Assembly (NCBI GenBank): GCA_030426085.1
Contig: JAUHYW010000009.1
Span: forward strand, 62,001 to 126,000
Source: a bacterium
GTDB taxonomy: Bacteria > Myxococcota_A > Bradymonadia > UBA7976 > UBA1532
Length of the DNA: 64,000 bases
Reading direction: 5' to 3'
How positions within the stretch are numbered: position 1 is the stretch's first letter; the number at the start of each line of letters is the position of its first letter. Positions 16,482 to 34,309 of the stretch are shown here, in pieces. The notes below the pieces were generated by a model. The model saw only the letters and a list, made by a program, of their open reading frames with translations. It did no database searches and had not been told where the DNA came from. Made by a program: the position numbers and the translations under genes.

Positions 16482-19301
16482 TCAAGGGCAGGCCATCGAC
16501 GCGCCGCCGCTGATGCAGCCGTCGTCGGCGCAGCATCCGATCTTGATCTCGAGCCCGCTCGGACCGTCCTCGGCGCGGGTCGGCGGCGATGGCCCGCAGT
16601 CGATGCCCCCCTCGCCGGCATCGCTCCCAGCCGCGCCACCAGGTCCGCCGTCACCGCCGGCGCCCGGCACGAAGCCGAGCAGGGCCTGGGCCCGCCCGGC
16701 CGCGTCTTCGTCCTCCATCGAGTCGACGCCGGTCACGAAGCGGATATCCGAATCGGCCAACTCCCCGTCGACGGGATGCAACCGCAGCACGGCCACCGAC
16801 GGGCCGCCCGCGCCCCCCCCGGCGTTTCCGCCGCAGCCACCGGGGCCGCCGTCGCCCCCGGCACCCCCGACGGTGCACATGTCGCAGCCAGCGTTCGAGC
16901 CACCCGAGCCACCTGCCGCGCCCGCGCTGCCCGCGCCGCCGTCTCCCCCGGCGCCGCCCGGGCCTCCCTGGCCGGTCTCGATGCGTACGTCGTGCAGCCG
17001 CACGACCCCGCCCCGGACCACAAGGCCGAACGAGCCCCCACCGCCCCCGGCTCCACCGCCCCCAGCGCCGGGGCAGCCGCCCGCGCCGCCGCCGCCGCCG
17101 CCGCCGCCGGGCGGGCTGTCGTTGGGGGCAGAACCCCCTCCGCCGCCGCCCCCACCACCACCCGGCAGTCCTGCGCCGGCCGAGGCGCCGTCGCTCGGCA
17201 TCCAAGGGAATCCGGGGTTGTCGACCACTCGACCAGCGGCCACGCCGGGCATCGACGGCGCGCCGTGTGACCCTCGAGCACCGGGCCCTGCCGATCCACC
17301 GGGCCTCCCCACCAAATCACTACCCGCGCCACCAGCCCCCAGGAGCTGATCTATGAACGTGATCCCACCGCCTGCGCCATCTTCGCCATGATCGCCACCG
17401 CGCCCGCCGGCCGCAGGCAGCGTGACGCCCACCAGCTCCAGATCCGTCGCGCATGCCGGCGCCTGCCCGCCGGCCCCGCCCTCACCGGCCCGGTCGACAT
17501 GGTTGCTGTTCATGCCGGCCTGACCCCCGGCCGCGATATCGAGCGACGGGCCAACCGCGCCATTCGCCCCGTCCCGTCCGGGGCCGCCAGCGCCTCCGAT
17601 CAGGCGGCTGTCCGCGATCTGCAAGTGCTCGCCCACGCCGACGGCGAGCACGGCGGCGCTGCTGTCCGATGCATCCACCGCATCGCCTGCCTCCACGACG
17701 ACGTTGTGCAGCACCGTGCGCCCAGTGAGCCGCCGATAGCGCAGCAGCACCCGATGGCCGGTGAGCCGGGTCACCCCCTCGCCCGCGGCGCTGCGCACCC
17801 GGCTCCAGGTATGGCGAACGACGTCCTCCGGTGCCTGCCGCATGTCGACGTCGCCGCCCTGCGGATCGAAGCGATAGCCCCCGAGGATCGAGACCTGATC
17901 GGGCACTTCCAGACCCAGGAGCAGGGGGTATTCCCCCGTCTCCAGCACGATGGTCAGGGGGCCCTCGACCCCAGCGCCGCGGAGCGCCTCGGCCTTGGCG
18001 AGCGCGTCGCCGAGGCTGATATACGGGGCGACCGGATCGCCGTCCGCGTCGGTGCCCACGTAGGAGGCCCCGGTGTGATCTGGACGCGCGCCGACCGACG
18101 GGGCGACGAAGATGAACAGCTCGCTGCGGCTGCCATCTTCGACGCCATCACAGTCACCATCGGTGAAGTCGACCGCCTCTTGCACCTCTGGCCCGACCAC
18201 GCACTCGCAGCCATTGGCCGGGTCACGGTCCAGATCAAAGCTGCCCTCGGGGCACCCGGTCAAGACGCAAGCGCTCGATTGACACGCGAAGATCCCAGCG
18301 CGCGGCTGCCCCCCGGACTGGTGACAATCGGTGCCACACGCGCCGCAGTTGAGCGGGTCGGACGTGAGGTCGAAGCCCTCGTCAGTGGACCCATCGCAGT
18401 CATCATCTACGCCGTTGCACGCCTCGTCGGGTACTGGGCCACACGCACCGCACACGTTGAACTCGTCGGCGTCGCCGTCGCAGTCCTCGTCGATGCCGTT
18501 GTCACACACCGTCGGAGCCGGTCCCACTTCACCCACACACGGGCCCGAGAAGTCGCCATCGACGCACGCCCGGGTGCCCGCCATGCACGCTCCTGTCTGC
18601 TGCTCTGGGGGCACCACATCCCAGCATGACTCGGTGATGCCCTCGTCAACGCTTTCATCATCGTCGTCGTCATCGCCGTCGCAGACCTCACACCCCTCGT
18701 CGGGCAGGCCGTCGCAGTCGTCGTCCGCCCCCAGAGGGTCGCAGTTCTCCTCGGGCGGGGTCCCCCTCCACTGGACATCGCACTTGTCATCGGGGCCGAG
18801 GAAGGTGATCGTCCCCCCGCCCACCCCCCCATCGGGTGGTGGCTGCACTTCGACCGACGCCCGATACAAGCGCAGGATGCAGCCCGCCAGATCACGACAC
18901 GCTGTGATCGGCAGGACGCGCCCGCGCTCACAGTCGGCCAGTGCGCTGTTCTCCACGCTGACATCGAAGACGAAGAGGGCCGCGTCGCGGATGGCATCCC
19001 GGGACACGTCGAAGCGAGCGCTGTCCATCTCGATACGGGCGTTGCCTACGCCCATGCCCTGCGGCCACCGGACCGGCGCGGCGCCCACTTCATCCAGATT
19101 GGAATCCAGGACGAGGCAACCCGCGATCTCACGTCCATCTGCTCGGCTGCGCATCGCTGCGCCGCACTCGTCCCCGTTCTCGAGGCAACTCCTGAAATCG
19201 ATCGAGATCCGGCCATTCGTGGCGCGGTACGCCACCTCCGGCTCGACACACCCCAGCCCGCAGACCCCGAGCAGCACGAACCAGATGCCCCTGATGCCCA
19301 T
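16482..19301 (-). CDS. MopE-like Gly-rich surface lipoprotein
   Basis: A 939-residue lipoprotein. The lipobox is GLGC. After an N-terminal domain (~20-165) come four or five MopE-type metal-binding repeats (~170-395) with the DxDCDGxxDE pattern, for example DDDCDGLPDEGCE and NGIDEDCDGDADEF. MopE repeats bind Ca2+ or Cu. Next is a domain of beta-helix character (~400-600, VDQVSILGGYRFD-like) and then ~270 residues rich in Gly, including runs of ten and eight glycines. The C-terminus has paired Cys. The protein is probably surface-exposed, perhaps an adhesin. Its codon choice looks less GC-biased at third positions than the neighbours, which might mark recent acquisition. Confidence 0.72.
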   Translation of the reverse strand: MGIRGIWFVLLGVCGLGCVEPEVAYRATNGRISIDFRSCLENGDECGAAMRSRADGREIAGCLVLDSNLDEVGAAPVRWPQGMGVGNARIEMDSARFDVSRDAIRDAALFVFDVSVENSALADCERGRVLPITACRDLAGCILRLYRASVEVQPPPDGGVGGGTITFLGPDDKCDVQWRGTPPEENCDPLGADDDCDGLPDEGCEVCDGDDDDDDESVDEGITESCWDVVPPEQQTGACMAGTRACVDGDFSGPCVGEVGPAPTVCDNGIDEDCDGDADEFNVCGACGPVPDEACNGVDDDCDGSTDEGFDLTSDPLNCGACGTDCHQSGGQPRAGIFACQSSACVLTGCPEGSFDLDRDPANGCECVVGPEVQEAVDFTDGDCDGVEDGSRSELFIFVAPSVGARPDHTGASYVGTDADGDPVAPYISLGDALAKAEALRGAGVEGPLTIVLETGEYPLLLGLEVPDQVSILGGYRFDPQGGDVDMRQAPEDVVRHTWSRVRSAAGEGVTRLTGHRVLLRYRRLTGRTVLHNVVVEAGDAVDASDSSAAVLAVGVGEHLQIADSRLIGGAGGPGRDGANGAVGPSLDIAAGGQAGMNSNHVDRAGEGGAGGQAPACATDLELVGVTLPAAGGRGGDHGEDGAGGGITFIDQLLGAGGAGSDLVGRPGGSAGPGARGSHGAPSMPGVAAGRVVDNPGFPWMPSDGASAGAGLPGGGGGGGGGGSAPNDSPPGGGGGGGGAGGCPGAGGGGAGGGGGSFGLVVRGGVVRLHDVRIETGQGGPGGAGGDGGAGSAGAAGGSGGSNAGCDMCTVGGAGGDGGPGGCGGNAGGGAGGPSVAVLRLHPVDGELADSDIRFVTGVDSMEDEDAAGRAQALLGFVPGAGGDGGPGGAAGSDAGEGGIDCGPSPPTRAEDGPSGLEIKIGCCADDGCISGGASMACP

Positions 19302-19323: not shown

Positions 19324-20478
19324 CTACTCGACCCGGAAAAGCGTCGGCGCGAAGCGATCCGGCGTCGGCAGGGCGTCAGCCGGATCGAGCGTCTCGTCGA
19401 AGCGGGCCTTCCAGTACTCTGTCAGCGCCGCCCGGTGCCCGTCCACCTCTGCGGGGAACGTCGCGTCGAAGCGCTCGAGGCCGAAGTCGCCGAAGCTGTA
19501 GATGGTGAGCTGGATCTGGCCGTCGTCGAGCGGGTTGATGTAGCCCGCCACCAGCTCCAAGACGCCGAAGGTCTCGGTCATCGTGAACATCAGGTCGTTG
19601 ATGTAGCCGTCACTGAAGGCGTCCTCGCCCCGATACAGCAGCCCGGCGAGCGGGTCGTACTCGTCGCCCTTGTTGCGGGCGTCCTTCAGCCGGGCCCGCA
19701 CCGACTCGCTCTTGCCGTTCTCCAGGCTGACCAGATCACCCCAGCGCACGTAGCCCGCCTTGCGGACCTCGACCAGATGGGGCCCGGCGGGGATGAACGG
19801 GTTCACGTAGGGCACGTTCTGCCCGATGACCCCCACCGCCCGACCGTCGACGTACACATGGGCCCCGTCCACGTTGGCGGTCACCTGGAGCTCGGCCGTG
19901 CCGGCGATGGTGCTCTCGCCGCACTTGTCGGCGAGCGGTTCGAACTGCTCGAGCGGCCCGGCGCTGCCGGCGATGTTGCGGGTCAGCGAGACATAGGCAC
20001 AGTAGGACTCGACCGCCTTCTCGACCTGCCCCGCCGCGCTGCGCGCCAGATAGTAGTAGAAGAAGATGCCCCGCAAGAGCGCCGTGTCCGACGCGTAGGG
20101 GATCGCCTTGGTGTAGAAGCGCTGCGCCCGGAAGAGCTGATCGATCGCCTCGTCGGCGTCGTCCTTCTCCATCGCCCGCTGCGCGTCGTTGAAGTGCCGG
20201 CGGGCCTTCTCGATGTCGCTCTTGCTGAGATAGCCCACGTCGAAGCGGGGCTCGATGGGGAAGCTGCGGGCCCGCTGCGCGTCGTTCTCCCGGGCATAGT
20301 CGTACATGTTGCGCAGATCGCGCTCGATGCGGACCGCCGTGTTGGGATCGGCGTCATCCCGGGCGAAGACCAGGATCACGGCCTCCCGGGTGTCTTTCTC
20401 GCTCGACTGCGCCCCGGCGCTCACCGGCAACGCGAGCGCCACGGCCAGGGCGGCGAAGCAGGCGCGACGCCGGCTCAC
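19324..20478 (-). CDS. Exported TPR/PEGA-domain protein
   Basis: A 384-residue periplasmic protein. The signal peptide (VSRRRACFAALAVALALPVSAGA) starts at GTG 20478. The helical middle (~60-175) is TPR-like with ALLRGIFFYYYLARSAAGQVEK. A PEGA-like beta domain follows (~185-255: VDGAHVYVDGRAVGVIGQNV, then PHLVEVRKAGYVRW). The C-terminal third is unassigned. Its start overlaps the stop of the TolB-like gene as GTGA (20475-20478). PEGA domains often bind or decorate cell-envelope structures; here the protein belongs to the transporter operon and may link it to the envelope. Confidence 0.7.
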   Translation of the reverse strand: MSRRRACFAALAVALALPVSAGAQSSEKDTREAVILVFARDDADPNTAVRIERDLRNMYDYARENDAQRARSFPIEPRFDVGYLSKSDIEKARRHFNDAQRAMEKDDADEAIDQLFRAQRFYTKAIPYASDTALLRGIFFYYYLARSAAGQVEKAVESYCAYVSLTRNIAGSAGPLEQFEPLADKCGESTIAGTAELQVTANVDGAHVYVDGRAVGVIGQNVPYVNPFIPAGPHLVEVRKAGYVRWGDLVSLENGKSESVRARLKDARNKGDEYDPLAGLLYRGEDAFSDGYINDLMFTMTETFGVLELVAGYINPLDDGQIQLTIYSFGDFGLERFDATFPAEVDGHRAALTEYWKARFDETLDPADALPTPDRFAPTLFRVE

Positions 20479-21602
20479 TCGGCGGTCAGATCGGCCGCGG
20501 TGAAGGTCACCACGTACAGCCGCTCCCAGGTCTTGTTGCTCGACCCGGTCTGGCCCAGCGCTTTGAACGCCAGCAGCATCTGCTCGCCCCGGGCCATCAG
20601 CGACAAGTCGCTGTTGAGCTGGGTCCCGGTGTTCAGCCGCCCGCGGGCAGAGCCGTCGGTCCGGACCCACATCACCGGGTTGTTCCGCTTGAAGTCGCGC
20701 TTGACGTACAGCACCGTCTGCCCGTCGGGCATCCACTGCGGCCCGTCGTGGTCGTCGACGACGATGTCGTCGGCCAGCTTGGTCGCGTTCTCGCCGCTGA
20801 TGTCGATGACCCACAGGTCGAAGACCTTGTCGCTCTTGTTGCCCTTGTTCGAGTAGAACGCCACCCGCCGCCCGTCGGGCGACCAGCTCGGCCGGATCTC
20901 GTCGCCGGTCCAGGCGGTGATCATCTTGGTGGTGTCCGCCGGCCGGGTCACGTCGATGACGAGGCCGATGTCCTGCCCCTTCTCGGGCCGGGCCCGGGTG
21001 AAGAGCAGATAGCTCTTGGTCGGCGACCACCGGGGCCGGAACTCGGTCGACCCCTGGAACGTCGTCGCCTGCAGCGGCTTCTCGGTGTCGCCAGCGAGGT
21101 CGATGACGTAGATGTCGCCCGAGTCGCGCCGCTGCGAGGCGTAGGCGATGAACCGCCCGTCCTGGCTCCACGCCGGCTGGCCGTCGTTGCCCGGGTTGTT
21201 GGTCAGCCAGCTCCCGTCGGCGAAGAGGTCGAAGTTCTTCTTCGGCCCCCGGCTGCTGAACACATAGGGCTTGGACAGCAGCTTCATGTCCGGGGCCCAG
21301 GTCAGCTCGACGACCGGCGGCTTCTTGCCCCCGAGCATCGCCGAAGCCGCGCTGCGCCCGGTGGTCACCTCGTCCTCGCCCTGCTTGCGCAGATCGGCAG
21401 AGAACCGGGCGATCCAGGTCTCGCGGGTGTCGGCTTTGGGGTTGTAGACATCGAACGCGATCTGCTGGGCGTCGGGCGCCCAGCGGGGGGCCTGGCAATG
21501 TGCCGACGGCCGATCGGCGATCTGGCGAGGCGAGCTGACCTCGGCCGAAACCAGGGTCGGCGCGAGGAGGGCACAAGCTGCGAGGGCGATCGTCTTCTTC
21601 AT
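20475..21602 (-). CDS. TolB-like beta-propeller protein
   Basis: A 375-residue exported protein. The signal peptide (MKKTIALAACALLAPTLVSA) is followed by five or six PD40/TolB-type blades with the motif SPDGRRVAFYS: PRWAPDAQQIAFDV, AWSQDGRFIAYASQ, RWSPTKSYLLFTRA, SWSPDGRRVAFYSN and QWMPDGQTVLYVKR. TolB-like propellers act as periplasmic scaffolds or as partners of outer-membrane proteins. Start ATG 21602. It lies between two membrane or periplasmic TPR proteins and shares the minus-strand operon with the ABC transporter. Not true TolB: the N-terminal domain is missing and the length is short. Confidence 0.78.
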   Translation of the reverse strand: MKKTIALAACALLAPTLVSAEVSSPRQIADRPSAHCQAPRWAPDAQQIAFDVYNPKADTRETWIARFSADLRKQGEDEVTTGRSAASAMLGGKKPPVVELTWAPDMKLLSKPYVFSSRGPKKNFDLFADGSWLTNNPGNDGQPAWSQDGRFIAYASQRRDSGDIYVIDLAGDTEKPLQATTFQGSTEFRPRWSPTKSYLLFTRARPEKGQDIGLVIDVTRPADTTKMITAWTGDEIRPSWSPDGRRVAFYSNKGNKSDKVFDLWVIDISGENATKLADDIVVDDHDGPQWMPDGQTVLYVKRDFKRNNPVMWVRTDGSARGRLNTGTQLNSDLSLMARGEQMLLAFKALGQTGSSNKTWERLYVVTFTAADLTAE

Positions 21603-21627
21603 CTCGACACCGTCGTCAATCGAATCA

Positions 21628-22374
21628 TTACCACTGCAATCTGACAGCTTCCCGGACCTCGGGGTCGGGCTCCGCCACCAAGAACGCCACGCCGACCGCG
21701 ACGGCGGCCGCGGCGACCGCGCCTCCGCCGAGGTACCACCACAGGGCCGAGTCGTCGTCATCTTCGTCCCTGCGGATCTGCAGGATGATCTTCACCGTCG
21801 GCGAAGGCGCGCCCTGTACGATCTCGAAGGGCACATTGTTCGCCGTGTAGTGCCCATAGGGTAGAAATACCGTCCGCGGAAGTTCAATGTCGGTCTCGCG
21901 GAAGCGGGTGCGGATCGACTCGAAGTGGGCTTTCTTCTCTTTGTTGACCATGCCGGTCTTCGACTCGAAGAAGATGCGCCCCTTCTCGTTGGTCTCGCCC
22001 TCGCTCGCCTCGACGTGCAGGGCGCCGAACAGGCCCGACATCTCGCCCTTCAACGCCTGGGCGTCTTCGAGCACGTCGGCGTCGCCCTCGGCGAGCCCGA
22101 GCGACGTGTCGACCATCTCGAACGCCACCTCGAGCAGCAGCAGCTCGTAGGCCGCCCGCGCCCGTAGAAGCGCCGTCTCGGCGTCCTGCTTGCCGGCCGG
22201 CGTCGCCCACGCTCGATCCATCGTGCTCAGCGCCTGCTTGGGCAAGCCCCGCTTCAGGTACAGCTTGCCCTGCGCCTTGAGATCGTCGAGCGGAGCGCTC
22301 GGCGCCTCGGCGAGCGCCGGGGCCGACCCGACCCCCAGGATGCACAGAGCCGCACCGAGCGCGAGCGCTCTCAT
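21628..22374 (-). CDS. Exported TPR-like protein with membrane anchor
   Basis: A 248-residue protein with a signal peptide (MRALALGAALCILGVGSAPA), a helical TPR-like N-terminal half (LKAQGKLYLKRGLPKQALST, ALLRARAAYELLLLEVAFEM) and a membrane helix near the C-terminus (WWYLGGGAVAAAAVAVGVAF) followed by a short acidic end. The layout resembles the gene at 15662-16444. The start ATG 22374 overlaps the stop of the upstream ABC ATPase gene as ATGA (22371-22374). The function is unknown; it may interact with the transporter. Confidence 0.7.
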   Translation of the reverse strand: MRALALGAALCILGVGSAPALAEAPSAPLDDLKAQGKLYLKRGLPKQALSTMDRAWATPAGKQDAETALLRARAAYELLLLEVAFEMVDTSLGLAEGDADVLEDAQALKGEMSGLFGALHVEASEGETNEKGRIFFESKTGMVNKEKKAHFESIRTRFRETDIELPRTVFLPYGHYTANNVPFEIVQGAPSPTVKIILQIRRDEDDDDSALWWYLGGGAVAAAAVAVGVAFLVAEPDPEVREAVRLQW

Positions 22375-23387
22375 TCGTCTTCCTCCGCCAGTTCGGACGG
22401 CGCGCCGAAGCACGCGATCCAATGGGACTCGCCCACGACCTGCGCCGGGGGGCGCTCCCGGCGGCAGCGGCTCAGGATACCGAGTCGTTCGGCCAGAGCA
22501 CAGTCGGGCGAATAGACGCACCCCCCGCGAGCCTCGGCCTCGTCGGGGCGGGTCACCCGCGGCGGGTCGCGCCGCTCGCGCGGCGGCCGGCGGCGGTCGC
22601 GGGCCAGATCGGCCGCCCGCATGAGCCGGCCGGTATACGGGTGATGGAACCGGGTCTGCCCCAGCAGCGGCGCGGGCACCTCTTCGATGATGCGGCCCTT
22701 GAGCATGACCAGGACCCGATCGGCGATGCGCCGGACCAGCCCCAGGTCGTGGCTGATGAGCAGGTACGTCAGCTTCTCGCCCTTGAGCTGCTTGAGCAGA
22801 TCGATGATCTGGAGCTTGATCGCCGCGTCGAGCCCGCTCGTCGGCTCGTCGGCCACGATGAGCTTGGGCTTGGTCGCCAGGATGCGCGCCAGGCCAGCCC
22901 GCCGCTTCTCGCCGCCGGACAGGCTCGCCGGCCGCTGATCGGCCCGGGGCAGCAGCCCCACCCGATCGAGCAGCTCGTCGGCGTGCTGGCGCCGCTCTCC
23001 CTCGCCGAGCCCCGGTCGGTGCAGGCGCAGCGACTCGTCGAGCATCTCCCGCACGCTCATCTTCGGGTGCAGGTTGGCGGTCTGGTTCTGGAACACCATC
23101 TGGAACGAACGCCGCCGCTCGCGCAGCTCGCCCCGGTCGACGGCGAAGAGATCCTCCCCCTCGAAGAGCACCTGCCCCTCGTCGAGGCCGGTCAACCGGG
23201 TCACCACCTTGCCCAGCGTCGTCTTGCCCGACCCCGACTCGCCGATGAGCGCCACCACCTCACCGGGGTGCACGTCCAGGTCGACGGCGTCGAGCGCGAT
23301 GGTCGTCTGCCCCCCGCGCAGCAGGCTGCGGGACCGGAAGCGCTTGACGAGCCCTCGCGCCGAGAGCAGATCGGACCTCTCGCTCAC
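22371..23387 (-). CDS. Oligopeptide ABC transporter ATP-binding protein, OppF type
   Basis: A 338-residue ABC ATPase. Walker A is GESGSGKTT, the Q-loop region MVFQNQTANLHPKMS, the signature LSGGEKRR, Walker B KLIVADEPTSGLD and the switch His in LISHDLGLV. The C-terminal ~70 residues have the oligopeptide/dipeptide (HPY) extension with FHHPYTGRLM and clustered Cys near the end (CVYSPDC...C...C). GTG start at 23387 overlaps the stop of the OppD gene as GTGA. With its partner ATPase it would energise two-permease import. Substrate not assignable. Confidence 0.87.
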   Translation of the reverse strand: MSERSDLLSARGLVKRFRSRSLLRGGQTTIALDAVDLDVHPGEVVALIGESGSGKTTLGKVVTRLTGLDEGQVLFEGEDLFAVDRGELRERRRSFQMVFQNQTANLHPKMSVREMLDESLRLHRPGLGEGERRQHADELLDRVGLLPRADQRPASLSGGEKRRAGLARILATKPKLIVADEPTSGLDAAIKLQIIDLLKQLKGEKLTYLLISHDLGLVRRIADRVLVMLKGRIIEEVPAPLLGQTRFHHPYTGRLMRAADLARDRRRPPRERRDPPRVTRPDEAEARGGCVYSPDCALAERLGILSRCRRERPPAQVVGESHWIACFGAPSELAEEDE

Positions 23388-24271
23388 GCCGCCGCTCCGC
23401 TGGGCAGATCGGCCGCCGAGAGCAGCATCGCGGTGTAATCCGCCCGCTGCCCCCGACCGAGCCGCAGGTTCTCGGCCGTCTCGGTCTCGACGACCCGGCC
23501 GCCCTTCATCACGATCACCCGATCGGCGAGATACAGCACCTCGCGGATGTCGTGGGAGATGTACATCATCGAGCGCCGCTCCTCTTCGAGCAGCGCCCGG
23601 AACAGCTCGACGATCTCGGCCCGCACCGTCGTGTCGAGGCCGGTCGTCGGCTCGTCGGCGATGAGCAGCTTCGGCCGGCGGGCGAGCGCGACGGCGATCA
23701 TCGCCCGCTGACACATGCCACCCGACAGCTCGTGGGGATACGACCCGTGCACCCGGCCCGGCTCGTTCATCTGGACCCGGTCGAGCCAGTCGACGGCCTT
23801 CTCCCCCCGCTGGGCCGCGGTCAGATCGGGCAGCGCGAGGGCGATGGACTCCTCGACCTGGGCGCCGACCGTCATCAGCGGGTCGAGCGAGTGGCGCGGG
23901 TTCTGGAAGACCGCCGTCATCATGCGGCCCCACAGCGGCCGCATGCGGGCGTGCACCATGCGGCGCCACTTGCGACAGTTCTTGCTCACCCGCTTGCCCT
24001 TGCGCGAGATGACCTGCTCCAGATCGGACAGCAGCCCGATCTCGTCGTCACCGTCGCGCAGCGTGATCGAGCCGCCCATCACCCCCGGCTCGCCGGCCAC
24101 GAGGCCGAGCACCGCCATCGTCGTCATCGTCTTGCCGCTGCCCGACTCACCGAGGATGCCCAGGACCTCGCCCGGCGCCAGGTCGAAGCTGACCCGGTCG
24201 ACCACCCGTCGCCGCCCGCGGGCGGTGTCGAACTCGATCACCAGATCCTCGACCGACAGCAGGGGGCTCAT
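23384..24271 (-). CDS. Oligopeptide ABC transporter ATP-binding protein, OppD type
   Basis: A 295-residue ABC ATPase: Walker A GESGSGKT, Q-loop AVFQNPRHSLDPLMT, signature LSGGMCQR, Walker B KLLIADEPTTGLD, switch His in YISHDIREV. It also has an insertion (SRKGKRVSKNCRKWRRM) after the Walker A region, richer in basic residues than usual. The C-terminus has a short YTAMLL remnant of the HPY extension, and no Cys cluster is present. ATG start 24271 overlaps the OppC stop as ATGA (24268-24271), preceded by GGAGG. Confidence 0.87.
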   Translation of the reverse strand: MSPLLSVEDLVIEFDTARGRRRVVDRVSFDLAPGEVLGILGESGSGKTMTTMAVLGLVAGEPGVMGGSITLRDGDDEIGLLSDLEQVISRKGKRVSKNCRKWRRMVHARMRPLWGRMMTAVFQNPRHSLDPLMTVGAQVEESIALALPDLTAAQRGEKAVDWLDRVQMNEPGRVHGSYPHELSGGMCQRAMIAVALARRPKLLIADEPTTGLDTTVRAEIVELFRALLEEERRSMMYISHDIREVLYLADRVIVMKGGRVVETETAENLRLGRGQRADYTAMLLSAADLPSGAAA

Positions 24272-25089
24272 CGCACCTCCTCCTCGTCGGCTCGGGCGAG
24301 CAGGTTGCCGAACGCGAGGAAGCCGGCGATCGTGACCACGATGGCCACCGCGGGCACCGCCCACGGCCACGCGCTCACCCCGCGAAGTCCCCGGGCCTGG
24401 GCGACCATGTTGCCCCACGAGGGATCGGGCTCCTGCACCCCGTAGTCCCCGAGGTACGACAGGGCGACTTCGACGAAGAGCACATAGCCGAAGACGTAGG
24501 TCGCCTGCCGGATGAGCAGCGGCCGGCACTGCAACCAGAGGATGTGGTAGAGCAGGATGCGCACCGGCCGGAAGCCATGCGCCACATGGGCCAGGATGTA
24601 ATCCTCGCTGCCCAGCGCCTCCACCCGTCGGCGGATCACGGTCGCGATCGACGGCACGAACAGCACCGCCGCGACGAACGCGATCAGGTAGATCGACGGG
24701 TTGAGGATGGTGCAGACCAGGATGATGAACACCAACCGCGGCAAGGTATCGATGAGCTGCATCGTGCCCAGCACGCCCCCGCGCAGCCAGCCGCCGGCGT
24801 AGCCCGAGACCGCGCCGCAGAGCGCGCCGAAGACCGTCGCGAGCGCCGCCGCCATCAGCCCCGGCAGGAAGAACGCCTCGGTGCCCTTCAGGAGCCGCAT
24901 CGCCACGTCCCGACCCTGGCCGTCGGTCCCGAAGATGTGGCCCATGCCCGGCGCCTGGAGGAGCTGGTCGTAGTCGACCGCGTCGGCCGGGTCGTAGGGC
25001 ACGAAGGGGGCGATGACGCCGAGGAGCAGGACCAGCCCCACGACGGTCCCGCTGAGGTACAGCCCGACACGCAGGCGGCTATCCCCCAT
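24268..25089 (-). CDS. Oligopeptide ABC transporter permease, OppC type
   Basis: A 273-residue inner-membrane permease of the BPD_transp_1 family, with six predicted helices starting at VGLYLSGTVVGLVLLLGVIA. The EAA-type cytoplasmic loop is around SEDYILAHVAHGFRPVRILL. The start is placed at ATG 25089, after GAGGTGG on the minus strand; this overlaps the OppB stop by 11 bp. An ATG four codons upstream is possible. Pairs with the OppB-type permease for a heterodimeric channel. Confidence 0.83.
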   Translation of the reverse strand: MGDSRLRVGLYLSGTVVGLVLLLGVIAPFVPYDPADAVDYDQLLQAPGMGHIFGTDGQGRDVAMRLLKGTEAFFLPGLMAAALATVFGALCGAVSGYAGGWLRGGVLGTMQLIDTLPRLVFIILVCTILNPSIYLIAFVAAVLFVPSIATVIRRRVEALGSEDYILAHVAHGFRPVRILLYHILWLQCRPLLIRQATYVFGYVLFVEVALSYLGDYGVQEPDPSWGNMVAQARGLRGVSAWPWAVPAVAIVVTIAGFLAFGNLLARADEEEVR

Positions 25090-26056
25090 GGGCCACCTCA
25101 CGGGGATCGACGAGGGCCCGGATGATATCGGTCAGCAGGTTGACCGCGATGATCGTCGCGGTGAACAGCACGCTCAGCCCGACCACCACCGGGAAGTCGC
25201 GCTCGCGGGCCGCCTCGAGCAGCACGTAGCCCCCGCCGTCGAGGGTGAAGACGTACTCGACGATGACCACCCCGCCGAGCACGATCGGCAGGCGCGCGGC
25301 GTAGCCCGACAGCAGCGGCATCACCATGTTGCGGGCGATGTGCCCCAGGGTGCGGGCGCCCTTGGCCTTCACCGCCGCGATGAACTGCGCGTTGCGCAGG
25401 GCGTTCAGGTCGGCGCGCACCGAGTTGAAGAAGTCCATGAACAGGCCATCGCCGGCGATCAGGGTCAACCCGGCGAAGACGTACGGCACCAGCGACTCGG
25501 TGTACATTTCGAGCGGATACCAGCTCGGCGGTACATAGCCCCCCTCGACGAGGAAAGCCTTGATGCCCCAGTTGACGAACTGGACGAACACCACCGCCAC
25601 GACGAACGACGGCGCCGCGGTGGCCACGTAGAGCGGGCCGGTCAGGAGCTGCTGCCGGCGGCTGGGCTCGCCGAGCAGGAGGGCGGCGAGGATCGCCAGG
25701 ATCAGGCAGGCGACGAGGGCCGAGGCCGAGAGCAGCAGGGTGCGCCCGAAGGCCGGCAGCACGACCTCCATCACCGGGGCCCCGGGGGAGAAGACCAGGG
25801 ACTCGCCGAAGTCGCCGAACAGCGACCGCATCAGCCACGCGATGTATCCCGTGAAGGGGTCGCGGTCGAGCCCGAACTCCTCCATCAACCGGGCCTTGAC
25901 GTCGGGCGGAGTGCCCATCGGGCTGATCGCGTCGATCGCGTCGCCCGGCGCCGACCGGATGGTGATGTAGATGACGAACGTCGCGCCGACCAGCAGCAGC
26001 AGGCCGCCTGCCGCGCGCCGGAGGGCGGCGATCGCCAGGCGCGCTGCTCGGCTCAA
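25079..26056 (-). CDS. Oligopeptide ABC transporter permease, OppB type
   Basis: A 325-residue permease with the OppB N-terminal helix (ALRRAAGGLLLLVGATFVIY), the typical long periplasmic region with PGD and MGTPPDVKARLMEEFGLD, and the EAA loop (KAKGARTLGHIARNMVMPLL). The start is TTG 26056, overlapping the stop of the binding-protein gene as TTGA (26053-26056); earlier starts would read into that gene. It is one of the rare TTG starts in the window. Forms the channel with the OppC-type protein. Confidence 0.83.
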   Translation of the reverse strand: MSRAARLAIAALRRAAGGLLLLVGATFVIYITIRSAPGDAIDAISPMGTPPDVKARLMEEFGLDRDPFTGYIAWLMRSLFGDFGESLVFSPGAPVMEVVLPAFGRTLLLSASALVACLILAILAALLLGEPSRRQQLLTGPLYVATAAPSFVVAVVFVQFVNWGIKAFLVEGGYVPPSWYPLEMYTESLVPYVFAGLTLIAGDGLFMDFFNSVRADLNALRNAQFIAAVKAKGARTLGHIARNMVMPLLSGYAARLPIVLGGVVIVEYVFTLDGGGYVLLEAARERDFPVVVGLSVLFTATIIAVNLLTDIIRALVDPREVAHGG

Positions 26057-27591
26057 GGGCTCAGCTCCCACTCCTCGAATGACGTGAAGTAGTAGTAGGG
26101 CTGGATGAACGTGCCCTTGAGCTGCCGGCTGAGGCCGGAGTAGACGTCGAGCGACCACAGGAAGTAGTATGGCAGGTCGCGGTTGAGCACCGCGTGCAGC
26201 TGCTTCATGTACTCCTTGTACTTCTTGTAATCGCGGGTCGACTTGGCAGTGTCGAGCAGCTCGTCGACCTCTTTGTTCGAGTAGTTGATGAAGTTCATCA
26301 CCCCCTTGCTGTGGAACAGCGGGTAGACGTCCTCCACCTCCTCGAACGACCACACGTTGAGGGTCAGGTCGAACTTGTTGCGGTTGAACACCTGCTCCCG
26401 GTAGCGGGCGTGGTCGACGTACTGCGCCTTCACCCGCACGCCGATCTTCTTGAGCTGGGCCTCGATCCCGAGCAGCAGCGCCTGATTGCTGGCCAGCTCC
26501 TTGTCCATCACGAACGTGAACTGGAGCTTGGTGCGGCCCTTGCGCCGCACGCTGCCCTTCTTCTTGTAGCCCGCGTCGTCGAGCATCTTGTTCGCCCGCG
26601 CGATGTCCTGCTCCCGGGGATCGACCTCGAAGTTGTAGAACGGGCTCGACTCGGTGAACGGGCCCCCGAGGATGTCACCCCGACCGAGGTGCGCCTCGAG
26701 CAGTTCCTCACGGTTGATGGCGAGGGCGATGGCGTCGCGCACGACCGGGTCTTCGAGGCCCCGGGACTTGTGGTTGAACGCCATGTACCACCACGAGACC
26801 GTGTGATACGGCTCGAGCACCACCTGATCGCTGTTCTCGAAGATGGGCACGTTCTTCGGCGGCAGGAAGATGACCGCCTGAACGCCGGCCTGCTTGCCCG
26901 AATACTGCAGCAGGCTGACCTGAGCCGACTTGTCCGGCGTGTGCTGCATGAGCACCTCGCCGATGCGGGCCGGGGCCCAGTAGTCGGGGTTGACCTCGAG
27001 CGAGACCGAGCGGGCGCCGAACTTCTGCACCTTGTACGGCCCGGTGCCCACCGGCTTCCGCCCGAAGCGATCCTTGCGGCTGATGCGGGTGCTCTTGAAC
27101 GCGTGCTTGGGCAGCACCTTGAAGAGGAACCGCCGCTCGGGCTCGTTGATCGGCCGGTTGAAGGTGAAGTGCACCCCGAACTGGCCCTCGGCGCTGACGT
27201 CGCGGATGAACCCGAACTTGCTCTTGGCGTTGAAGACGGTCTTCGGGTTCTGGGCCGCCTGCACGGTGAAGACGACGTCCTCGGCGCTGAACGGCTTGCC
27301 GTCGTGCCACTTGACGCCCTCCCGCAACACGAAGCGGATGCCCATGTTGTCGGGATCGGTCTTCCACGAGGTGGCCAGAGAGCCCTCGAGGTCGCCGCGC
27401 TTGTTGATGATCACCAGCGAGTCGAAGATGAGCTCGACCATGCGCACCGAGCTCATGTCTTCGGCGAAGAACGGGAGCAGCGAGGTCGGCCGGGCATCTT
27501 CCGGATAGCGGAACACCTGTGCATCGGCCGGCGCCGCGAACGCAGCGACGACACACGATACGAGCAGGCTCGAGAGGAGACGGTTCATCAT
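26053..27591 (-). CDS. Extracellular solute-binding protein, family 5 (peptide/nickel type)
   Basis: A 512-residue periplasmic substrate-binding protein. A signal peptide with an AxA-type site (AAPADA) and no lipobox starts at ATG 27591 (a second ATG follows). Family-5 features include LVIINKRGDLEGSLATSWK, REGVKWHDGKPFSAEDVVFT, GTGPYKVQKF and ALAINREELL. The size matches OppA/DppA. The substrate cannot be read from sequence; peptides, opines, or nickel chelates are family options. It stands first in the chain of overlapping transporter genes and 28 bp after the TPR lipoprotein gene. Confidence 0.9.
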   Translation of the reverse strand: MMNRLLSSLLVSCVVAAFAAPADAQVFRYPEDARPTSLLPFFAEDMSSVRMVELIFDSLVIINKRGDLEGSLATSWKTDPDNMGIRFVLREGVKWHDGKPFSAEDVVFTVQAAQNPKTVFNAKSKFGFIRDVSAEGQFGVHFTFNRPINEPERRFLFKVLPKHAFKSTRISRKDRFGRKPVGTGPYKVQKFGARSVSLEVNPDYWAPARIGEVLMQHTPDKSAQVSLLQYSGKQAGVQAVIFLPPKNVPIFENSDQVVLEPYHTVSWWYMAFNHKSRGLEDPVVRDAIALAINREELLEAHLGRGDILGGPFTESSPFYNFEVDPREQDIARANKMLDDAGYKKKGSVRRKGRTKLQFTFVMDKELASNQALLLGIEAQLKKIGVRVKAQYVDHARYREQVFNRNKFDLTLNVWSFEEVEDVYPLFHSKGVMNFINYSNKEVDELLDTAKSTRDYKKYKEYMKQLHAVLNRDLPYYFLWSLDVYSGLSRQLKGTFIQPYYYFTSFEEWELSP

Positions 27592-27619
27592 CTCTGCAAC
27601 GGCTCCTTGGCAGACACGT

Positions 27620-29197
27620 TCACTGGCCCGAAGTCACGCCGCTGCCCTGCTCCATCGCCTTGTGGCTGAGCAGATCGCGGAGCATCTCGGCGGGACCGTC
27701 AGCAGCCGGGAGCGCTGTGCTCATCCGGCTGAGGTACTTGAGGGCGACCCGCGGCCGACCGATGCCGACGTTGTCGAGGGCGGCGGCGGTCAGGGCCGAC
27801 AGGGCGTTTCGCGCCGACGGGGCCTGGGCCGAGGTCTTGTCCTCGGCGGCGTCGCGCATCTTGACGGCGAGCGCCGGGCGATCCATGCGCACCAGAGCAT
27901 CGGCGAAGCGCCGCTGCACGGCGTCGACATAGCGATCGACCAGCATCAGCTCGGCGAGGGTCGCGGCCCCCGGGGCGTCCTCGCCCACGGCGGTCACGAC
28001 GTCGATCAGCGCCCGGCTGAAGACGGTGCGATCTTCGGGGAACGCCTCGGCGTCCACCCGGCCGATGAAGCTGCCGGCCCACGCCTGGACCACCCGCTGG
28101 CCGATGGTGCCCCGGGCCAGTCCGTCGACGGCCTTGCCCGCGCCGGGCTCGTCGCCCTTCTCGGCGAGCAGCCGGGCCCGCAGCGCCGCGGCCTGCTCTT
28201 TCAGATCGCCGGCGTCGAGCGCGTCGGAGAGGACCAGCATCGGCAGGCCGGGCGCAGCGGGCGCGGCGGCGCCCAGCGCGTCGAGGGTCGCCAACGCCGC
28301 GTCGGGCTGCCCGAGCATGCGCTGGGCGTCGGCCTTGAGCAGCAGCGGCCAGCCGCTCGCGTCGGCCAGCAACTCGACCGTCAGCGCGGCGTACAGCCGG
28401 GCGCCGACATCGGCGGCGGCCGGATCACGCAGCGCGACGCGCTCCTTGCCTTCGCCGAGGATGACATCGCCGGCCTTCGCCTCGAGGCGGCCGTAGCGGG
28501 CGCGGGCCTCTTTCACCCGCCCGGCGGCCACCAGAGCCCGGACTCGCAGCCGGATCTCGTAGGCCTCGGTGCCCCCGGGGGGCAGCTCGGCGTCCACCCC
28601 GGCGGCCTCACCGCGCAACAGCGCGCCGAGCGGCGTATCGGCCCCCGACTTCAGCGCAGCGGCCCATGGCGCGGCCGGCGCGTCAGCCGGGATGCGCGCC
28701 AGGGCGGCCGCCGGATCGGCGCCGCGGGACTGCGCCAGCCGGGCCTCGATGTAGGCCCGCCACGGCGCGCTGGCTTCGGCGCCCGGGCGGCTGGCCTGGA
28801 CCTTGAGCAGATCGGGCGTGAGCGCGCGGATCATGAAGCCGATGCGGGCGTGGGCCCGGGCGAGCTCGAGCGCGGTGCGCGCCGCCCCGGTCCGCGCGGT
28901 CGGCGACTTGTCGGCGTCCTCCTCAAACGCCTCGAGCGCCTCCCGGGTCTGGCCGGTGAAGAGCGCGCGCCAGCCGGGGCTGCTCTGAGCCAGCTCCACG
29001 AGCGGCTTCGGATCCCGGGCGAGCCCCACGAGCCAGCTCGACTCGAAGCGCGCCTTCTCGGCCTCGGCCGCCTTCTTCTCGGCGGCCTCCTCGGCCTCGC
29101 GGGCCGGATCCGGCTCGACTTTCTTCGGGCAGCCGCTCAGCGCGAGGGCGCCCGCGACCGCGAGCCATGCGGCCCGGCGGTGGAGGAGAGAGCCCAT
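27620..29197 (-). CDS. Ala-rich helical TPR-like lipoprotein
   Basis: A 525-residue lipoprotein. The signal peptide ends in ALALSGC, then comes a charged linker ([20 protein letters not shown]) and a mainly helical body of TPR-like character with long Ala/Leu-rich helices ([35 protein letters not shown]). No catalytic motif is seen. The start ATG 29197 lies 5 bp after the stop of the preceding lipoprotein gene. It precedes the binding-protein gene and may act as a periplasmic scaffold in the same system. Confidence 0.72.
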
Positions 29198-29202
29198 CCG
29201 CG

Positions 29203-30999
29203 TCAGAGCTCCATCTCGCGCTTGAGACCCGAGAGCTTCTCGATCTTCTTGTTCGCCTGGGAGACCGCGCCGGGGTTGCTGCCCTGGGAGAAGGTCCGGT
29301 AGCGCTCCCACTTGGCGATCGCCTTGTCGACGAGGCTCACGTTGGCTCGCTTCGGATCCTCGTGGTACTGCCGCAGGAACTCGAACTCGAGCATCTCGGC
29401 GTGGAACCGGTAGGCGTCGCCCTTCTGCCGCGCGGGCAGCCGCCGCATCTTGCGCTCCACCCGGCCCATGGTCTTGAGCGCCTTGCCGTAGCTCTTCAGC
29501 TGAGCGTACGACTTGGCGAGCGAGAGCAGGATCGCGGGGTCGTGCTTGTAACGCCCGCGACGGGTGGCCTCTTCGAGCGCGGTCGACTGCCGCTTGTAGT
29601 CCTTGAGCTGGAAGTAGAACTCGGCGAGCAGGCGGTTGGCCTCGTAGTAGCCGGGGTGGGTCCGGTCGATACCCGCGAGGAAGTTGACGTCGGCCCGCTG
29701 GAGCACGCCGCTCTGGTCGAGGCGGGCGTTGATCTGTTCGAGCCGATCGCTGATCTCCTGCCGGCTCATCGCCGCCACCGACGGGTTGTCGGTGTCGGTG
29801 ACCGCCGTGCCCTCCCCGATCGCGTTCGGATCGACCTCGGCGCCTTCCCCCCCGAGCAGCCCCTCGGGCAGCTGGCCCTCGGCCTCGGCCTTGCGGGTCC
29901 GACCCCGGGAGACCCCGGTCGCGGTGATCTCGGGTGTGGTGTCCACGGCGGGCGGAGGCGGATCGGCCGGCGGGAGCGGGTCGGCCGGCGGCGGATCTTC
30001 GACCGCGAAGAGGTCGCCGAAGTCGTCCCCCTCCGGCTCGAGCACCGGCTCGGGCTCCGCCGCGACCGGCTCCGGGTCGGGGATCGGCGCCGGGTCGGGG
30101 ATCGGCGCCGGGTCGGGGATCGGCGCCGGGTCGGGGATCGGCGCCGGGTCGGGGATCGGCGCCGGGTCGGGGATCGGCGCCGGGTCGGGGATCGGCGCCG
30201 GGTCGGGCATGGGCTCGGGCTCGGCGACCGGCTCCGGATCGGGCGCCGGCCTCGGATCCCGGCCGATGGCGAACGGGTTCGGGTCTTCCTTGGGCGGGTC
30301 GTTCTGAGCCACCGTCGTCGGCAGATCGACCTTGGGCGGGTCGGGCTTCGGGGGCTCGTCGGCCGCCGGCTCGTCGGCGTCGCCCCCGCCGAGCGGGCCC
30401 TGCTTCTTGTCGGTGAGCAGGTAGATCTCGTCGTCTTCGGCGAAGACGCCGCCCTTGATGGTCAGCTTGCCGGCGGTCGCGGTGAACTTGGTGCCCGGCA
30501 CCCCGCTCACCCGCAGCAGCGCGTCACCAGCGGGGCTGGTCTTGCCCACCAGGGTGCCGTTGACCTTGACCCCCTGGCCGCCTTCGCCGGTGCGCACCAT
30601 GAACAGGTAGTCCCGCTCCGGCCGCTGCAGCGTCGCGCTGAAGTCGACCTCGAGCCGCCCGTTCTTGGGGTACTTGACCGTGATCTGCCACTGGCTCTGG
30701 TCGGTGTTGGGCGGCACGCTGAAGCCCTGGGGCGCCTCGACGTTGAACGCGAGGACCTCCCCGTCCTTGGCTTCGTACTTGCCCTGGAAGTTGCCGTCGT
30801 CGTCGGTGATCCCGAACTTCTTGCCGTTGATGTAGAAGCGCACCATCGCGACCGGCCGTCCGGAGACGTCCACGGTCTTGACGTTGAGCTTGACGAAGCG
30901 TTCCTGCGGCTCCGGCGGGTCTCCGCTGCACCCGAAGGCGAGCACGACGAGCCCGAACAGGGCGGCGCGGCAGTACCTGATGGCGTTGACCGGCGTCAT
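29203..30999 (-). CDS. Lipoprotein with PDPAPI repeat and helical C-terminus
   Basis: A 598-residue lipoprotein. A signal peptide ends in VLAFGC. The N-terminal domain (~30-200) contains two beta-sandwich-like segments of the PEGA/carboxypeptidase-regulatory kind ([20 protein letters not shown] and [20 protein letters not shown]). A Pro/Asp/Glu-rich linker follows with seven identical PAPIPD hexapeptides, which would span the periplasm or cross the peptidoglycan. The C-terminus (~420-598) is TPR-like ([40 protein letters not shown]). The start ATG 30999 is preceded by GGAGAGG; an upstream ATG at 31014 has no such site. Confidence 0.75.
30074..30199 (+). repeat. Seven perfect 18-bp tandem repeats
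   Basis: The unit GGGTCGGGGATCGGCGCC is repeated seven times without a mismatch from 30074 to 30199. It encodes seven PAPIPD hexapeptides on the minus strand inside the lipoprotein gene. Perfect identity between copies shows recent expansion or ongoing homogenisation, so copy number may vary between strains. Confidence 0.9.
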
Positions 31000-31029
31000 G
31001 AGCGTCCTCTCCATACCCGTCGGCGCGCC

Positions 31030-31488
31030 TCAGATACCCGTCTTCGGGATCGAGGATTCATCCGGCGCGATCTCTTTCTCTTCGAGCGCCTCGGGCGCAG
31101 TCTCGCCGATGTCCGGCGTGCGCGGCTTGAGGATGAGATCGGCGACCCGCGTCTGGCCGCCCTCCACCGTGACCTCGAAGTCGAGGTCCTCGAAGCCGAA
31201 CTTGCGCACCATGATGCGATAGGTCCCGGCCGGGATCGGCTCGGTCTCGCCGAGGTCGTTGATGCGCTGCCGCAAGACGAAGAAGCCCCGGCTGTTGCTG
31301 ACGACCACGTCGGTCTCGGGCTGGGTGGCCACCTCGGCCTTGGGCACCGGCGTGCCTCGGTGGTCGACGACCCGTCCGCCGATCGAGATCGGACCGCCGC
31401 CGCAGGCGACCAGGGTCATCGCCCCGGCGAGCAGGAGCAGGCGCCGGCCGAAGCGGGCGATCAGGGGGTGGGTCACAACGGCGTGCAT
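31030..31488 (-). CDS. Lipoprotein with carboxypeptidase-regulatory-like domain
   Basis: A 152-residue lipoprotein. The signal peptide ends in LVACGGG. A carboxypeptidase-regulatory-like beta-sandwich (~35-120: ISIGGRVVDHRGTPVPKAEV, PAGTYRIMVRKFGFEDLDFE) makes up most of the mature chain, followed by an acidic tail. The start ATG 31488 shares one base with the stop of the preceding gene (TGATG). Probably a surface or periplasmic partner in the operon that runs to 19324. Confidence 0.73.
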   Translation of the reverse strand: MHAVVTHPLIARFGRRLLLLAGAMTLVACGGGPISIGGRVVDHRGTPVPKAEVATQPETDVVVSNSRGFFVLRQRINDLGETEPIPAGTYRIMVRKFGFEDLDFEVTVEGGQTRVADLILKPRTPDIGETAPEALEEKEIAPDESSIPKTGI

Positions 31489-31946
31489 CAGCCGCCCTCC
31501 ATCCGCTGGCCGATCACCGTCAGGGCGTAATTGATCGTCCATTTGCGGGGGTCGATGAACCGGAGTTCGTTGAAGCGATCGTAGGCATCGGTGAGCCGCC
31601 CCTCTTCGGTGGCGGCGATGGCCTCGGCGCGCAGCTCGTCGCTGCGCTCGACCACCTCGGGGCGCTCGTTGGCCTCTTTGATGCGGTCGCTGATTTCCTG
31701 GAGCAGGTCGGGAGCGTCGTTCTCGAGCTTGCGGCTCGTGATGATGATGTAGGCCCGGGCATACTCTTTGAGACCCTCGACGAGCAGGTCGAGCTTCTTG
31801 CTCTTCCGGCGGGTCTTCTCGGCCTTGTCGAGCTGCTTGCGCCCCTTGTCGACGAACTCCCGGGCGTCTTCGATGGGCCCGGCGAAGGCGGGCAGCGGTG
31901 CGAGCAGCGCACCGAGCGTCAGCCACATGAGCACTCGTTTCCGCAT
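31488..31946 (-). CDS. Exported helical protein, first gene of the operon
   Basis: A 152-residue protein with a clear signal peptide (MRKRVLMWLTLGALLAPLPA) and a mature all-helical region, charged and TPR-like (AREFVDKGRKQLDKAEKTRR, KEYARAYIIITSRKLENDAP). Function unknown. It is the first gene after the promoter at 31990-32020 and is followed by eleven more co-oriented, mostly overlapping genes. Confidence 0.72.
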   Translation of the reverse strand: MRKRVLMWLTLGALLAPLPAFAGPIEDAREFVDKGRKQLDKAEKTRRKSKKLDLLVEGLKEYARAYIIITSRKLENDAPDLLQEISDRIKEANERPEVVERSDELRAEAIAATEEGRLTDAYDRFNELRFIDPRKWTINYALTVIGQRMEGG

Positions 31947-31989
31947 CGTTGCCGTCTTCCTTCCGAGCGATCCGCGGGGAACCTGTCGC

Positions 31990-32020
31990 AGTATAAACCA
32001 CGGGCGAATCGGCAAGTCAA
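31990..32020 (-). promoter_or_regulatory. Sigma-70 promoter of the transporter/TPR operon
   Basis: On the minus strand TTGACT (32015-32020) and TATACT (31990-31995) are 19 nt apart; TTATAC one base earlier gives 18. Both boxes are close to the consensus. Transcription would begin near 31983, about 35 nt before the ATG at 31946. This is the clearest promoter for the whole 31.9-19.3 kb block. Confidence 0.65.
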
Positions 32021-32062
32021 TCTGACGCCCCCGGCCCACGCGGTCCGGGCGGACGCCCCTCC

Positions 32063-34309
<2,247 letters not shown>

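Follow-up and report, generated by a model that had tools for sequence, protein, structure and literature searches.

Peptide importers are usually seen as self-contained, and an operon in which one is encoded with seven further exported proteins raises the question of whether importer and neighbours form a single system and what such a system would do. The operon in question lies on the minus strand of a 64,000-nucleotide stretch (hereafter the window) of contig JAUHYW010000009.1, from a bacterium of the class Bradymonadia whose assembled genome (GCA_030426085.1) comprises 10.1 Mb in 178 contigs. Twelve co-directional genes, from 31946 to 19324, encode an Opp-type ATP-binding cassette (ABC) importer (five genes) and the seven exported proteins. 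The importer and its envelope partners recur as one conserved unit, in the same gene order, within the taxonomic order of the window and in ten families outside its class. Together with a transmembrane (TM) kinase or pseudokinase they appear to make up a peptide-import system that has not been described before and is linked to components of the cell envelope and of signalling, with nearly the same gene order in distant families. The initial annotation, made from the DNA letters without database searches, had proposed the unit, which stands, and had not recognised the upstream kinase, the fusion of the arm of an operon protein to a kinase in other families or the second, paralogous sets.

Layout of the operon and its products

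The genes are listed below in the direction of transcription, with the putative promoter and the upstream kinase gene (SBP, substrate-binding protein; TPR, tetratricopeptide repeat; ORF, open reading frame; values after family names are E values).

32063..34309, minus strand: STK, transmembrane Ser/Thr kinase (Pfam Pkinase 1.3e-45), syntenic in relatives
31985..32025, minus strand: promoter-like box TTGACT-N19-TATACT, within the 116-bp gap between STK and g1
31488..31946, minus strand: g1, exported helical protein of 152 residues, an ORF with a signal peptide
31030..31488, minus strand: CbR, lipoprotein with a CarboxypepD_reg fold (PF13620 1.4e-10)
29203..30999, minus strand: arm lipoprotein, with beta domains, a Pro/Ala/Glu-rich linker and a C-terminal TPR-like arm
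27620..29197, minus strand: TPRlipo, helical lipoprotein of 525 residues and no Pfam family, with homologues in type II and distant loci
26053..27591, minus strand: SBP_bac_5 peptide-type periplasmic binding protein (PF00496 3.7e-68), with a Sec signal and without a lipobox
25079..26056, minus strand: OppB permease (PF00528 6.6e-15; NCBIfam Opp4B 1e-36, below cut-off)
24268..25089, minus strand: OppC permease (PF00528 6.5e-11; NCBIfam Opp4C 1.4e-47, below cut-off)
23384..24271, minus strand: OppD ATPase (PF00005 6.3e-24), catalytic motifs intact
22371..23387, minus strand: OppF ATPase (PF00005 4.7e-33) with an oligo_HPY tail (PF08352 1.9e-4) containing four Cys
21628..22374, minus strand: TPRmem, with a signal peptide, helical N-domain, PEGA-like beta domain and C-terminal TM helix (from the alignment)
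20475..21602, minus strand: PD40, exported TolB-like beta propeller (PF07676 1.2e-28)
19324..20478, minus strand: PEGA_TPR, exported protein with a PEGA domain (PF08308 8.1e-8)

The tight packing described initially was recovered, with successive intergenic distances of -1, 30, 5, 28, -4, -11, -4, -4, -4, 25 and -4 bp; start codons were re-chosen, which made several genes shorter than their raw ORFs. The consensus-like promoter noted at the outset also holds up. Its 19-nt spacer is long, which is why a stock promoter scan did not list it, and TTGAC(T/A) recurs in the STK-g1 gap of six of the seven family genomes compared (that of the window being one of the seven), followed after 17-19 nt by -10-like hexamers. 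The wording that the transporter is fused into the operon is apt only figuratively, there being no gene fusion in the window.

Pfam assigns one SBP_bac_5 protein, two BPD_transp_1 permeases and two ABC ATPases, in agreement with the full peptide-type importer first read from the translations. OppD and OppF each retain Walker A, the LSGG signature, Walker B with its Glu and the H-loop, and since both motif sets are complete and OppF carries the four-Cys oligo_HPY tail, the importer looks functional. The SBP has a Sec-type N-terminus in all orthologues and is very highly conserved in the alignment. Its closest solved relative is the oligopeptide binder AppA of B. subtilis (1xoc, 6e-43; 1zty is also among the matches), and its best score against the curated NCBIfam equivalog models (OppA, AppA, DppA, NikA and others) is 145 bits, to Opp5A_nikA, against a cut-off of 600; the permeases and ATPases likewise stay under their equivalog cut-offs. 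From the likeness to AppA, and bearing these low scores in mind, we infer that the SBP probably binds oligopeptides. Directly before its Q-loop, OppD carries an insertion of ~27 residues with a K..R.W...PLWG motif in all aligned orthologues, and we know of no such insertion in E. coli OppD. The sister family has a type-I operon (G015, L040:4995-6887) in which OppD and OppF are open through as one 631-residue frame.

Among the exported proteins, the propeller and the PEGA domain named initially were both confirmed by Pfam, whereas the TPR labels fared unevenly: the C-terminus of the arm lipoprotein gives a weak match (TPR_19 4.9e-5), and TPRlipo and TPRmem are without Pfam support (1/11 members). 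In the arm lipoprotein both ends are conserved, and the linker of ~190 residues between them, with PDPAPI repeats, is kept in length and composition only; the arm itself also spans ~190 residues. PDB profile searches with TPRlipo and the arm lipoprotein gave no match. CbR has a lipobox in all members of the order and is either a lipoprotein or Sec-exported in distant loci, and PEGA_TPR ends in an invariant PT(L/F)F(K/R)VE. TPRmem is anchored in the inner membrane, and the PD40 propeller is soluble. Judging from linker length, the proposal that the set spans the envelope is plausible.

Conservation within and beyond the order

Our searches covered one phylum. The same genes in the same order occur in 13 of the 16 genomes of the window's order, five of which have contigs broken inside the cluster (G007, G009, G010, G011 and G015), and tblastn recovered the same genes, order and orientation in the loci of the same family and order (L030-L040, L081 and L082). 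Between the window and the sister family, SBP, OppC, OppD and OppF are 57-62% identical and the remaining genes about 25-50%; the exported parts, less similar and still present in the sister family, thus evolve faster but are retained. Orthologues of g1 are found across the order, sister family included (L038/L039, 5e-10 and 4e-12), and, outside the class, in a single family (L126). The PEGA_TPR profile, run on the 16 order genomes and 315 others of the phylum, found one copy in 13/16 and 0/315, respectively, and marks an order-specific component; the three order genomes without it are incomplete assemblies (81, 89 and 77%). Pairwise distance correlations between genes agree with joint inheritance, and because all genes share the species tree they are not evidence on their own.

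Outside the class, the SBP profile has relatives in 61 further genomes, usually two per genome, and 44 distant SBP loci were retrieved. First-round profiles were built from sequences of the order only, so that their matches are independent evidence, and they already bring out a recurrent arrangement at loci from ten families beyond the class: [kinase-arm]-CbR-TPRlipo-SBP-OppB-OppC-OppD-OppF-TPRmem-PD40. With second-round profiles, which were widened once and include distant loci, 35 loci of ten families are of this type A, and where the flanks are long enough CbR is found in 32/33 (upstream flank of 1.8 kb or longer), TPRmem in 22/25 and PD40 in 17/23 (downstream flanks of no less than 4 and 6 kb, respectively). 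Nine further loci, of type B, read SBP-B-C-D-F-(TPRmem)-PD40 in 9/9. In the SBP tree, type I (that of the window's order), B, II and III are each one clade, as is type A except for L126; deep branching among the types is poorly supported.

Paralogous copies show the same association. A set in genus g3 of the window's family (L048, L083) has kinase, CbR, arm, TPRlipo, SBP, PD40 and Opp genes in one run, matched by type-I profiles for CbR (1.6e-6), arm (4.3e-6), TPRlipo (1.6e-10, in L083) and weakly TPRmem (0.016), and rearranged such that TPRmem and PD40 precede OppB. L126, from another family outside the class, is arranged in the same way as far as its contig reaches. These full sets indicate that whole sets, not single genes, were inherited in parallel. 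The window's genus also has a third set, which is strongly diverged (L049, L084); its Opp importer, with OppD and OppF in one polypeptide, is accompanied by a PD40-like gene and a large lipoprotein. In L049, which belongs to the window's own genome (G000:C107; 4083-5492 and 1160-3139), OppB has a DxDxDG-type, thrombospondin-3-like insertion in a non-membrane stretch.

Are such partners a general feature of peptide importers? The partner profiles had no match (E 0.05) at the genome's six other SBP_bac_5 loci, of which two are complete Opp operons, and seven orphan SBP loci from other families of the class gave none for PD40, TPRmem, CbR, arm or TPRlipo (E 0.05). The partners are thus a feature of this type of importer and do not go with peptide importers in general, in keeping with the earlier remark that they are atypical; the third set in L049/L084 is a looser exception. 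Relatives were also inspected for Opp genes consistently lacking the partners, the pattern that would speak against a unit, and this pattern was not found. The whole 10.1-Mb genome has ~5 PD40 genes, and one falling by luck inside a given ~15-kb operon would be roughly a 0.7% event, yet the pairing recurs across families. The idea that unrelated genes of a gene-dense genome came to be neighbours by chance, which has nothing in its favour beyond prior expectation, is already refuted by these controls, by the rarity of PD40 and by an order conserved across classes, and we give it almost no credence.

Loci L041-L047, in families f6 and f7 of the class, hold SBP_bac_5 proteins with no OppBCDF within about 8 kb, i.e. 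orphan SBPs. Family f6 lacks the set, and the SBP relatives inspected there are orphans. If f6 corresponds, as we presume, to the known predators Bradymonadales, then the set is absent from the known predators within the class, which lends no support to the uptake of prey-derived peptides suggested in the initial annotation; we found no evidence for that role, which may still be entertained outside f6.

Downstream of the twelve genes, one further gene may be a thirteenth member of the operon in the window's family:

16482..19301, minus strand: MopE-like lipoprotein, large, Cys-rich and Gly-rich (weak PF11617, 0.011)

It starts 22 bp after PEGA_TPR and encodes Cys/Asp repeats and long Gly-rich stretches; a similar downstream gene is present in most relatives of the window's family and was not found in the sister family. 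Elsewhere in the window, a very long minus-strand frame (52889-64000, 3703 residues, repeat-like by eye) exits the window. Another PD40 domain, C-terminal and 45% identical to the operon propeller, was set aside as it belongs to a different protein, encoded away from any Opp gene (L080:7822-11343, on G001:C71), a frame of 1174 residues with a caspase-like N-terminal stretch (by eye) and an FGE-sulfatase domain (1.6e-45).

The kinase and the arm

STK has one TM helix and a PEGA-like extracytoplasmic tail, lies upstream of the operon promoter, 116 bp from g1, and keeps the catalytic Lys, HRD Asp and DFG Asp (VALK, HRDLKPDN, DFG) in the window and three relatives. What ties it to the operon is the arm. 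In other families the arm is the C-terminus of a protein that begins with a kinase domain, as seen in 9/10 ORFs tested (Pkinase 1e-12 to 1e-40), the tenth being cut by a contig end, and this fusion links the upstream STK gene to the operon. In nearly all fused ORFs measured, a TM helix is followed by a linker of 101-265 residues, Pro-rich in most. The arm is thus found on three carriers, namely a TM kinase, a TM pseudokinase and a lipoprotein, and forms the periplasmic end of the TM carriers, whose kinase or pseudokinase domain is cytoplasmic.

Catalytic integrity varies among these carriers. The sister-family kinase is degenerate (Pkinase 0.0053 and 6.7e-7; HLSIS/HQG in L038). Outside the class, HRD and DFG are intact in two fused forms (family f11), while nine by pattern, and five more by reading, are without the catalytic Asp residues and are classed as pseudokinases. 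Such repeated catalytic loss with the architecture kept argues that the connection may matter more than phosphorylation in many lineages.

Possible functions and known systems

The reading we favour, with confidence a little short of even, is a dedicated oligopeptide importer held in an envelope scaffold, with a TM (pseudo)kinase coupling uptake to the cytoplasm. Peptides reaching the periplasm would be bound by the SBP and handed to OppBCDF. PD40 and TPRmem, whose genes most regularly follow OppF, may dock at the periplasmic face of the permease and assist there, whereas CbR, TPRlipo and the arm would bridge towards the outer membrane. The kinase/arm protein would then couple the state of importer or ligand to the cytoplasm, by phosphorylation if the kinase is intact and as a scaffold if it is dead; this coupling is the part that we infer, the conservation and architecture described above being observed. 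A more ambitious version, which we regard as tentative, is a phylum-wide trans-envelope import machine, in which a TM kinase, often now a pseudokinase, spans the periplasm on a TonB-like linker and couples importer, propeller and outer-membrane lipoproteins to the cytoplasm. Several observations weigh against the scaffolded, kinase-coupled importer. The window encodes the kinase in a separate gene ahead of the promoter, and the role of this kinase could lie elsewhere. Of the distant loci whose flank is long enough, 6/23 have no PD40; in L099 the lipoproteins and SBP are retained with no OppB-F beside them; and the set encodes no outer-membrane channel. The AlphaFold models of two partners, TPRlipo and TPRmem (two-sequence alignments; mean predicted local distance difference test score, pLDDT, 39.8 each), are too low in confidence to use, fold searches included.

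How far the kinase matters separates this reading from its main rivals. The set might be a plain nutritional peptide importer whose structural helpers hold SBP and permease at the envelope, the kinase being a neighbour or a remnant without signalling, which we consider possible but rather unlikely. That kinase motifs were lost, with the importer left intact, by the sister family and by the majority of families outside the class, and that the window kinase lies outside the main transcription unit, both fit such an importer; a remnant, however, would hardly be expected to keep the pseudokinase fold, TM helix, linker and arm, fused in many families, and the type-B SBP set also lies near kinase genes in several loci. 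Conversely, the set could be primarily a sensor, with the SBP reporting a peptide signal via the arm to the kinase and transport being secondary or serving to remove the signal. The arm-kinase fusion, the very high conservation of the SBP and published cases in which binding proteins control kinases (PMC6069109, PMC9769921, PMC10667598) would suit a sensor, but the importer has its four subunits complete and its ATPases intact, which implies selection for import, and most distant kinases are catalytically dead; we consider a primary sensor improbable.

Some Opp-type importers take up murein peptides (MppA/Opp), which together with the TolB-like propeller and the lipoproteins brings to mind an importer of the cell's own peptidoglycan or outer-membrane-derived peptides, placed at the wall for recycling. 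The propeller is not TolB, however, the closest solved SBP is AppA rather than MppA, and a Pfam search of the set found no peptidoglycan-binding domain, which makes recycling very doubtful.

If the scaffolded, kinase-coupled importer is borne out, it would represent a novel kind of uptake system, regulated or scaffolded, in which the importer is always accompanied by one set of envelope proteins plus a (pseudo)kinase arm, and it would give one of the numerous orphan Myxococcota kinases a concrete source of its signal. The active kinase, the dead kinase and the split arm offer a natural series for asking what a bacterial membrane pseudokinase does.

A published description of the combination of importer, envelope proteins and kinase was not found in the literature covered, which was partial and open-access. 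Binding proteins that control kinases have precedents, none of this make-up. In the GlnH-GlnX-PknG path of Actinobacteria, a binding protein in the periplasm, a linker across the membrane and a Ser/Thr kinase that includes TPR parts act together, GlnH being an amino-acid binding protein and PknG a soluble cytoplasmic kinase controlled via GlnX in C. glutamicum and M. smegmatis (PMC6069109, PMC9769921). Here, in contrast, the kinase itself crosses the membrane and its gene accompanies those of a full importer; the likeness noted is one of architecture, and of a putative SBP-controlled kinase pathway the set shows the gene linkage and the arm-kinase fusion. In Vibrio chitin signalling, a chitooligosaccharide SBP of the same broad family serves both uptake and signalling via ChiS (PMC10667598); unlike the present set, that system has a histidine kinase, a sugar ligand and no lipoprotein/propeller set.

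On the envelope side, TolB of Tol-Pal is also an exported PD40 propeller, and an identification of the operon propeller as TolB was rejected, as the TIGR02800 match is partial (98 bits against a cut-off of 343) and TolQRA/Pal are not among the operon genes. The Agl-Glt gliding machinery of Myxococcus, from the same phylum, also has operons of TPR and envelope proteins, but has neither an Opp importer nor a PD40-SBP pairing and no shared families were seen, and a link to gliding (AglT/Glt) was dropped because the gene sets differ (PMC3169522). Closest in composition are OppABCDF/AppABCDF of the PepT family, which have SBP_bac_5, two BPD_transp_1 permeases, two ABC ATPases and oligo_HPY on OppF in common with the set described here; this set scores below all of the NCBIfam equivalog cut-offs and is distinguished from them by the OppD Q-loop insertion, the obligate exported partners and the (pseudo)kinase arm.

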